Assembly (NCBI GenBank): GCA_002600635.1 | Contig: CP021375.1 | Span: forward strand, 124,001-188,000 | Direction of reading: 5' to 3' | Length of the DNA stretch: 64,000 nt | Source of the DNA: Rhizobium sp. ACO-34A | GTDB taxonomy: Bacteria; Pseudomonadota; Alphaproteobacteria; Rhizobiales; Rhizobiaceae | In this document: piece after piece, positions 24,475 through 26,087 of the stretch | Layout: each line of letters starts with the position of its first letter | Position numbering within the stretch: position 1 is the stretch's first letter | Notes under the pieces: model-generated | Database searches by the model: none | Seen by the model: the letters and a program-made list of their open reading frames with translations, nothing else | What the model was told of the DNA's origin: nothing | Program-made: the position numbers and the translations under genes

Positions 24475-24851
24475 GCCTCGTGGAAACGACGCGTCCGGCC
24501 ATGAATGCAGGTCACGAAGACGGTTCGGGCCATCCGCTCGATGCGAGCGGAGTGCGCTCTATGCCGAAGGCACGGAGCCAGCCTGCGGCCGTCCCCGCCG
24601 ATCCCGGTGACGATCGCTTGTCCGGTCGGGGGGGTGGCACCCCCGGCGCTGAGGCCCGTTCCGGTCCGCCCTGCTTGTTTTCGCCCCTGACATCGCCGGC
24701 CGGCCGGATCAAGGGGCAGGCGCGGCAAGCCGCTTGTCGCACCGGCAAAAAAACGGCTTTCCGCCTGCGGCCGAACCTTCCGTTTTTTCCCCGCCACGAC
24801 CCCTTGACCCGAACGACCGCCGCCGAGGGGCGGGCTTTCGCCCTCCCCCCT
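24475..24851. repeat. Repeat B, copy 1 (left of IS110 element)
   Basis: It matches 28745-29146. The last ~100 bp before the IS (from GGCAAAAAAACGGC to CCCTCCCCCCT) are almost identical in both copies. Other shared blocks are CCGCTCGATGCGAGCGGA and CACGGAGCCAGCCTGCGGCC. Open frames here are GC artefacts. Repeat C continues it at 25980, after the IS. Confidence 0.85.
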
Positions 24852-25034
24852 TGTAACTTGCCATCATGTGCATGGGACATACTTCCTGTATGCGGTGGCG
24901 GATCCAAGCCCGCAGCCCCCTTGGGATTTGTAGCCCGTGGCAGAGCCAGGGCTGGCTCCGTTGTTCCATTGAACCCGAACAGTCGCCAGGGCCGCTCGCG
25001 CATGCGAAGCCCGCTTAGACAAGGATGGGATTAG
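24852..25034 (+). ncRNA. Predicted bridge RNA region of the IS110 element
   Basis: This 183-bp non-coding left end precedes the recombinase. A basal stem GGATCCAAGCCC (24900-24911) / GGGCTGGCTCC (24949-24959) encloses an internal loop. Its 5' side, CCCCCT (24916-24921), equals the left target, and its 3' side, GGCAGAG (24939-24945), is complementary to the right target CTCTGTC (one G-U). A second loop carries ACAGTCGC (24979-24986), identical to the element's right end (25973-25980), and ACAAG (25019-25023), complementary to its left end CTTGT (24850-24854). This is the target/donor two-loop plan of IS621 bridge RNA. Ends of the RNA are not known. Confidence 0.75.
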
Positions 25035-25964
25035 ATGGAAAATGTTGTTGGCATCGATGTTTCGAAAGACCGGCTTGATGTACATGTCCTGGCGTCCGGG
25101 GAAAGCTTCGCAGTCCCGAACGATCACGACGGTCTTGATGCGCTTTGCGCTCGTCTTGTGCCAACGAAGCCGGATGTCGTCGCCATGGAGGCGACAGGCG
25201 GCTACGAGATCGTGGCGGCCGGAGATCTTTCGAGAGCCGGCCTTGCCGTTGCGACCCTCAATCCCGCCCAGGTGCGTGCCTATGCCAATGCCTTGGGCAA
25301 GCGCGCCAAGACGGATCCGATCGATGCGGCCGTGATCGCGGCCTTCGTGGCTGCCACGAAGCCTGCCATCCGACCCCTGTCTGACACGCAAAGCCAGGCG
25401 CTTGCGGCTCTTCTGTCTCGTCGCCGACAGATCATTGCGATGATCGTGGCCGAGGAGCAGCGATTGCGCATGGCTCTGGCCAAGGAGGCGCAAAAGAGTA
25501 TCAAGCGGCTGCTTGCGGCCCTTCGGCGCGAACTCGGCAGCCTCGATGCCGATCTCGACGATCATATCCGCAAGTCGCCTCTGTGGCGGGTCCGTGAGGC
25601 GCTTCTGACGTCGGTGCCTGGGGTCGGACGGGTGACCGCACGCACACTGCTTGCCGAGATGCCGGAGCTCGGCGATCTTGATCGCCGGGAGGTGGCCGCG
25701 CTTGCCGGCGTCGCGCCATGGACGCGGCAATCGGGGAAATGGAAAGGCAAGAGCTTCATCGGCGGTGGACGATCGGTGGTCCGTTCGGCTCTGTTCATGG
25801 CCACACTGGTCGCCTGCCGTCACAATCCCGTGCTGAAGGCTTTCCGCGACAGGCTGGTTGCCTCTGGCAAGCCGAAGATCGTCGCCATCGTCGCATCCAT
25901 GCGCAAACTGCTGACTATCCTCAACGCCATCATCCGGGACGAAAAACCATGGCAAAGCGCTTGA
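25035..25964 (+). CDS. IS110-family DEDD recombinase
   Basis: This 309-residue protein has an N-terminal RuvC-like DEDD domain ([44 protein letters not shown]) and a C-terminal Tnp20 domain with [33 protein letters not shown] and the serine-containing [20 protein letters not shown]. It recombines target and donor DNA under guidance of the RNA from the upstream non-coding region. The frame is complete. ATG 25035 follows GGATGGGATTAG. Only 15 bp separate the stop from the right end, so the non-coding RNA must come from the left end, the IS110 (not IS1111) layout. Confidence 0.95.
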
Positions 25965-25979
25965 CAGCAAAGACAGTCG

Positions 25980-26087
25980 CTCTGTCCGGGGGAATGTCAG
26001 AGGCCATTCCCCCGGACAGACCGGGGAGGCTTCGCCCGAGGGGGCTTGCCCCTTCGGGGTGGCAACGGGAAAACTTGGAGACAGACC
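25980..26087. repeat. Repeat C, copy 1: leader of the DUF932 gene with 15-bp hairpin
   Basis: It matches 29145-29253. A perfect stem CTGTCCGGGGGAATG (25982-25996) / CATTCCCCCGGACAG (26005-26019) with 8-base loop comes first. Then follow GGGGAGGCTTCGCCCGA, CCCTTCGGGGTGGCAAC and, just before the start codon, GGAGACAGACC-ATG. The same motif precedes the DUF736 gene, so both genes carry the same 5' leader. Confidence 0.85.

Follow-up and report, generated by a model that had tools for sequence, protein, structure and literature searches.

An IS110-group insertion sequence of Rhizobium with a predicted bridge RNA whose guides fit its own insertion site

Can the address used by an insertion sequence be read from one insertion? 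The question is raised by an element in a stretch of 64,000 nucleotides from Rhizobium sp. ACO-34A (contig CP021375.1, positions 124,001 to 188,000; hereafter the window). A sequence-only reading had proposed that this element carries, in its left non-coding end, the guides of an IS621-type bridge RNA. Read-out of the sequence, a repeat search, and comparison with an empty site place an IS110-group insertion sequence of 1128 bp at 24852–25979 on the forward strand. The left flank (24728–24851) is 99% identical over 124 nt to positions 29023–29146, the right flank (25980–26016) is 100% identical over 37 nt to positions 29145–29181, and the two matches overlap by CT in the copy near 29 kb. The proposal that a second copy of the target repeat delimits the insertion, with CT at both junctions, is thereby borne out (Table 1), and comparison with the uninterrupted copy indicates insertion at a 2-nt core without a longer duplication. 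This copy is a paralogous repeat within the window, not an orthologous site. The same empty sequence is carried by the Shinella plasmid pShin-06 (L196), and two other fetched plasmid leaders (L195 and L197) hold CTCCGTCC variants. The non-coding ends are unequal, with 183 bp upstream of the gene on the left, as had been noted, and 15 bp on the right, and they are common to relatives. The element, its ends, and the uninterrupted copy are thus defined at the level of sequence.

The gene between the two ends is an uninterrupted open reading frame for 309 amino acids, and the element looks intact. Its product matches Pfam families PF01548 (85.8 bits, cut-off 29) and PF02371 (65.7 bits, cut-off 21.3), as well as the NCBIfam model NF033542, named “IS110 family RNA-guided transposase” (222.9 bits, cut-off 140). 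Two solved structures were matched by sequence, the best being ISCro4 (9t56, 125.3 bits) and the other IS621 (8wt6, 121 bits). At D8, E52, D94, D97, and S233, the aligned ISCro4 residues are identical, and we take these to be the catalytic DEDD residues plus the serine. The corresponding serine of IS621 is reported as S241 (PMC11208158). A search of the strain's own genome (6.28 Mb, five contigs) found two places, the element itself and a relative at 81% identity on contig C1. The guide of this relative, GTCAGAG, faces the target CTCTGGC with six Watson–Crick pairs and one G-U pair. The best-ranked plasmid record has 75% DNA identity to the element, and the nearest full-length relative among 57 loci from a peptide-pattern search is L003, with 82% protein identity.

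From the sequence evidence below and by analogy with IS621, we consider it very probable that the element is an IS110-group insertion sequence, intact in appearance, with a bridge RNA encoded in its left end. All four guide words of the sequence-only reading were found in place by read-out. CCCCCT equals the left target and GGCAGAG pairs with the right target CTCTGTC with one G-U pair. The match of ACAGTCGC to the right end of the element could be refined to the right end plus the C of the core. The pairing of ACAAG with the left end CTTGT extends, as judged by eye, to a possible discontiguous pairing of TTAGACAAG with CTTGTAA.

Table 1. Coordinates in the window of the element, its predicted RNA and guides, and the uninterrupted copy of its target
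Feature	Position	Strand	Evidence or remark
Left core CT, target side	24850..24851	+	repeat search, read-out
Left non-coding end, predicted bridge RNA	24852..25034	+	183 bp; alignment and covariation
Possible 5′ stem-loop	24860..24899	+	single-sequence minimum-energy fold only; absent from consensus fold
Predicted target-binding stem and internal loop	24896..24963	+	arms about 24896–24911 and 24949–24963; covarying helix, coordinates read off the alignment
Predicted left target guide (LTG) CCCCCT	24916..24921	+	best left-target window 24915–24921, z 6.4
Predicted target-loop apical hairpin	24923..24936	+	alignment, consensus fold, pair count
Predicted right target guide (RTG) GGCAGAG	24939..24945	+	best right-target window, z 9.6
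Predicted donor-binding stem-loop	24974..25029	+	arms 24974–24977 / 25026–25029; apical stem 24989–24992 / 25009–25012
Predicted left donor guide (LDG) ACAGTCGC	24979..24986	+	equals right end plus C of core
Predicted right donor guide (RDG) TTAGACAAG	25015..25023	+	possible discontiguous pairing with CTTGTAA
Transposase gene, 309 aa, DEDD_Tnp_IS110 and Transposase_20	25035..25964	+	open reading frame, profiles, solved-structure matches
TTGACA, candidate −35 box at circle junction	25961..25966	+	overlaps stop codon
Right non-coding end (left donor), CAGCAAAGACAGTCG	25965..25979	+	read-out, shared ends
Right core CT	25980..25981	+	repeat search, read-out
Right target CTCTGTC	25980..25986	+	read-out, guide pairing
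Uninterrupted target-region copy, core 29145–29146	29023..29181	+	repeat search

If the left end encodes target guides, these should change together with the targets of related elements. Relatives were sampled through six peptide patterns, 63 genomes of the genus, and plasmid records, and further relatives came from subsets of larger groups (394, 397, and 289 genomes). The resulting 170 loci gave 105 transposase starts, from which we dropped 14 with less than 54% protein identity, six without a recognised left end, and three in which no right end was found. The 82 starts retained represent 54 distinct insertions; four had no usable flank, leaving 50 distinct insertions (including the window's own) that form 28 left-end clusters at 90% identity.

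RTGs were read from the alignment columns aligned with GGCAGAG and were compared with the first seven right-target bases. The RTG pairs with its own target at all seven positions (Watson–Crick or G-U) in 45 of the 50 insertions and at six or more in 48. The misfits are L105 (4/7), L126 (5/7), and L139, L130, and L140 (6/7 each). The sequence-only reading had expected other copies of the same element to lie in targets that match its guides; applied to these relatives, the expectation holds at six or more positions for 48 of the 50 insertions, and L105 and L126 do not match. For the 28 cluster representatives, 134 of 140 non-core positions are paired, compared with a permuted mean of 98.6, and none of 20,000 permutations was as good. 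The same is true when each of the 12 distinct RTGs is considered (56 of 60 paired versus 34.3 permuted; 0 of 20,000). Examples of guide and target are ACCTCAG/CTGAGGT, GGCTGAG/CTCAGCC, GGAGAAG/CTTCTCC, TGGGGAG/CTCCCCA, and GACAGAG/CTCTGTC.

An unguided scan, in which every 7-nt window of the left end was compared with the targets and z values were taken from 200 permutations among clusters, ranks first the two windows that hold the target words noted earlier. The best partner of the right target is 24939–24945 (97% of cells paired, z 9.6, next 3.3), and that of the left target is 24915–24921 (77% of cells paired, z 6.4, next 3.8). On these values, the predicted target loop changes in step with the left as well as the right side of the target. 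Pairing with the left target is weaker than that with the right. The left guide of the element is a six-base, C-rich match and therefore carries less information.

The left end had been read as holding two loops, and the homologues point to the same arrangement. RNAalifold was run on the left ends of the 28 clusters, and pairs were counted after removal of five of its 29 pairs, three in the donor loop plus the outermost two pairs of the target stem. Paired cells amount to 97.2% versus 92.0% in shuffles, and 10 pairs have two-sided changes versus 3.5 in shuffles (0 of 500 with as many); the consensus was derived from the same alignment as was scored, which favours structure. Sliding the partner by one column reduces pairing to 50.4% or 45.6%. 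Two-sided changes occur in seven of the 11 pairs of the target stem and in one of the eight pairs of the nearly invariant donor stems. In the target internal loop, which surrounds a small apical hairpin, the LTG lies on the 5′ side and the RTG on the 3′ side; the second stem-loop has ACAGTCGC on its 5′ side and TTAGACAAG on its 3′ side. The left end thus shows a covarying two-loop layout like that of the IS621 bridge RNA (PMC11208160). In a fold of the single sequence, stability does not exceed that of shuffles (z 0.26; 120 of 200 as good), and its energy was given no weight as evidence. This fold includes a possible 5′ stem-loop, the 3′ arm of which runs into the first bases of the target stem, such that the two compete at 24896–24899. 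An Rfam search of the left end matched no family. A mir-4672 match outside the left end is below threshold (25.5 bits, gathering 98, E 0.026) and was taken as chance.

The donor guides are supported by matching and conservation and by two distant relatives rather than by rich covariation, because they hardly vary in close relatives. In 48 of the 50 insertions, all eight bases of ACAGTCGC agree with the right end followed by the first core base; the remaining two insertions agree at seven of the eight. With the exception of L126, all insertions (49 of 50) contain TTNNNCAAG, which by eye is able to pair discontiguously with CTTGTAA. Discontiguous pairing of the RDG (9-for-7) has been described for IS621 (PMC11208160, PMC11208158). 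Five distant relatives were inspected by eye. L028 has ACAGTTG in both loop and right end, a matched change, and L040 has ACGGTTG in both together with TAAG facing CTTA, again matched changes. The donor match of L031 is unchanged, and the right ends of L026 and L036 were not found in this inspection.

Short words can match by chance, and a C-rich, low-complexity target would make this easier. When the left end was dinucleotide-shuffled 20,000 times, CCCCCT by itself recurred in 2866 shuffles (14%), a GGCAGAG-type match in 1183 (6%), ACAAG in 1816, and ACAGTCGC in 20. In contrast, the two target matches in order and 10–45 nt apart recur in 24 shuffles, and all four matches together in none. The single matches are therefore weak, whereas their combination is not. 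The unguided scan of the family also arrives at the same windows, and we regard chance as a negligible explanation for the matches at this locus. A different possibility is that the left end is a structured leader that regulates the transposase, that the protein reads the target, and that the guide matches reflect shared ancestry. Related elements do have targets in common, and the transposase of ISPpu9 is reported to be regulated by small RNAs (PMC8450116). Moreover, the permutation statistics and z values given above leave shared ancestry in, and for this reason a transposase tree was used (a quick method with 49 of the 50 rows, one short row being left out, and with 13 of 39 inner branches poorly supported). 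On this tree, the RTG undergoes at least 17 changes for its 12 states compared with a shuffled mean of 26.1, which indicates that guides are also clustered by descent; one RTG is shared by 22 of the 49 rows. Six changes concern GGGAGAG and four GGCAGAG (counted as changes of the RTG, not of the target), and both guides are thus scattered on the tree. A guide that changes this often and yet fits its own target so widely, together with the permutation result for the 12 distinct guides, argues against ancestry as the source of the matches, and the leader explanation appears highly improbable.

The functional RNA might also be a short processed seekRNA and not the full two-loop bridge RNA. SeekRNAs of 70–100 nt are described, one of them from an IS110-type element (PMC11187229). 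However, the donor loop ranks among the most strongly conserved segments of the left end and still matches the two element ends, as would be expected if it is used. We consider a short processed form unlikely.

The IS621 bridge-RNA plan is favored by the transposase, the anatomy of the ends, the loops, the covariation of target and guide, and the complementarity of the donor guides. From IS621 we infer a circle, its transcription, an RNA–protein complex, and catalysis. After excision as a circle, the element would have a promoter spanning its right–left junction, from which the bridge RNA would be transcribed. Its first loop, with LTG CCCCCT and RTG GGCAGAG, would select the target on both strands, and its second loop, with LDG ACAGTCGC and RDG TTAGACAAG, would select the joined ends of the element itself. 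With the RNA linking the target to the joined ends, the DEDD/serine recombinase would exchange strands at the core. A TTGA-type hexamer lies at fixed spacing before the junction in all 50 insertions and could serve as a −35 box in the circle.

What the predicted guide addresses can be seen in the host genome. The Watson–Crick right target of GGCAGAG is CTCTGCC. The genome contains 47 sites matching the 11-mer CCCCCTCTG[C/T]C predicted from the guide (40 with C and seven with T) compared with three for the reversed control, and the uninterrupted copy in the window is one of the seven T-form sites. In 19 fetched stretches, the site is mostly at the edge of the palindrome CACCCCCCTCTGCCCTGCCGGGCATCTCCCCCTCAAGGGGGGAGATCGG, which is dispersed on contigs C1 and C3 of the same genome. 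The exceptions are L183, which lacks this arrangement, and L178, L182, and L190, in each of which one side differs after the first part. Twelve of the fetched stretches are inverted pairs with a spacing of ∼140–250 bp. The relative at 81% identity is inserted in such a repeat of the CTCTGGCC form, whose 11-mer occurs 18 times versus two for the control. The window's insertion is at CTCTGTCC, a G-U match to the guide, upstream of a DUF932 gene; the twin of this leader precedes a DUF736 gene. What the guide matches is a dispersed host palindromic repeat (CACCCCCCTCTGCCCTGCCGGGCATC...), and the window copy used a G-U variant of that site in a repeated gene leader. IS110 elements that target REPs were reported in 2006, including ISRm19 of Sinorhizobium meliloti, another rhizobial IS110 element in REPs, to which the present element is likened by description (PMC1525189).

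The core at the right junction is CT in all 50 insertions, although the right-end finder would have accepted TT. At the left junction, 11 of the 50 insertions have TT and one has AT. These cores were listed by an automatic left-guide finder; its guide run lengths were set aside, since its register fails if GG occurs earlier or if the second core base is unmatched. Sites of the GCCACCTTCTCCCC type occur 103 times in the six genomes or records that hold such elements (reversed control, 1), and the CT form of this site occurs twice in the same six (control, 0). Two R. etli insertions have orthologous empty sites that read GCCACC-TT-CTCCCC (L191 and L192 for L121; L193 for L131), and their filled sites read GCCACC-TT at the left and CT-CTCCCC at the right. 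L194 differs in sequence at the site and was set aside as an empty site for L131. The insertion in the window, with CT as its target core, is not itself a mixed case. In L150, L136, and L090, the left junction lacks one base compared with the expectation from the repeat, although the palindrome of the right flank matches the TT-core repeat; these three rows do not fit a simple mixed-core picture.

On balance, we lean toward the explanation that this clade tolerates a mismatched first core base, with only the second base shared, such that the left junction would show the target core and the right junction the donor core. An equivalent description of these junctions is a core of one base, T. The top strands of IS621 are cut after the core (PMC11208158), and this position predicts the mixed-core outcome if top-strand information is kept. 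Experiments with IS621 included TT, AT, and GT cores in which target and donor were changed together (PMC11208160). One analysis of natural loops in that report kept only CT-core guides, which implies that other loops are present in its data. Among the titles and abstract openings of the bridge-RNA and IS110 literature reached by searches aimed at other questions, we found no report of mixed target and donor cores. If the explanation is true, bridge recombinases could give a strand-biased product and have a wider target range.

The element shares with IS621 of E. coli the DEDD and Tnp domains, a CT donor core, an RNA encoded in the left end (here predicted), a first loop with the guides for the target and a second with those for the donor, 9-for-7 pairing of the RDG (here possible), a junction promoter (here a candidate), and insertion in palindromic repeats (PMC11208160, PMC11208158). 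As described in these reports, IS621 has an RTG of 4 nt that is extendable to 7, whereas the RTG is 7 nt in most of the clade, and an LTG of 9 nt compared with a fit of about 6 nt here. The first base of the target core is not always C in the clade, and the transposases are related at 121 bits. ISCro4, the best solved-structure match, is remote in sequence, and its likeness is by transposase alone. Among the annotated features examined, the closest relative with an IS name is the ISMex17 family of Methylorubrum (L129/L140, L130), which has the same ends and loop plan but differs in identity (66% DNA, 56% protein) and in its RTG, AAGTGAG, with the target CTCACTC. The IS1111 group of seekRNA elements belongs to the same transposase superfamily and shares RNA-guided target choice. 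The long non-coding region of that group is usually downstream, in contrast to its upstream position here (183 bp versus 15 bp), as described in the seekRNA report (PMC11187229). A further feature of the IS1111 group is subterminal inverted repeats of 7–17 bp; its long right non-coding end is absent from our element, whose right end has 15 bp.

The bridge-RNA mechanism itself is already known and was published in 2024 for IS621; what is new here is an additional, well-supported example. The locus indicates that a bridge-RNA address is readable from one locus with an uninterrupted copy of its site and can then be checked in relatives. It adds a compact 309-aa transposase whose right guide fits 7 nt. 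The clade, in which the 50 insertions have 12 different right guides and often lie in GC-rich palindromic repeats, gives natural examples of retargeting and of non-CT target cores that are useful for recombinase mining.

Several other features lie near the element or elsewhere in the window. Genes for a Phd/YefM-type antitoxin and a PIN-domain (VapC-like) toxin are located directly upstream of the element, at 23709–24400. A leader with a strong hairpin is duplicated (24524–24851 with 28821–29146, and 26009–26102 with 29175–29268), and its copies precede the DUF932 and DUF736 genes. Stretches similar to 24400–24851 are present in 22 plasmid records, several times in many of them. Rfam matches in the window include the small RNAs ar15 and Atu_Ti1, at 18376–18485 and 43582–43676, both on the reverse strand.
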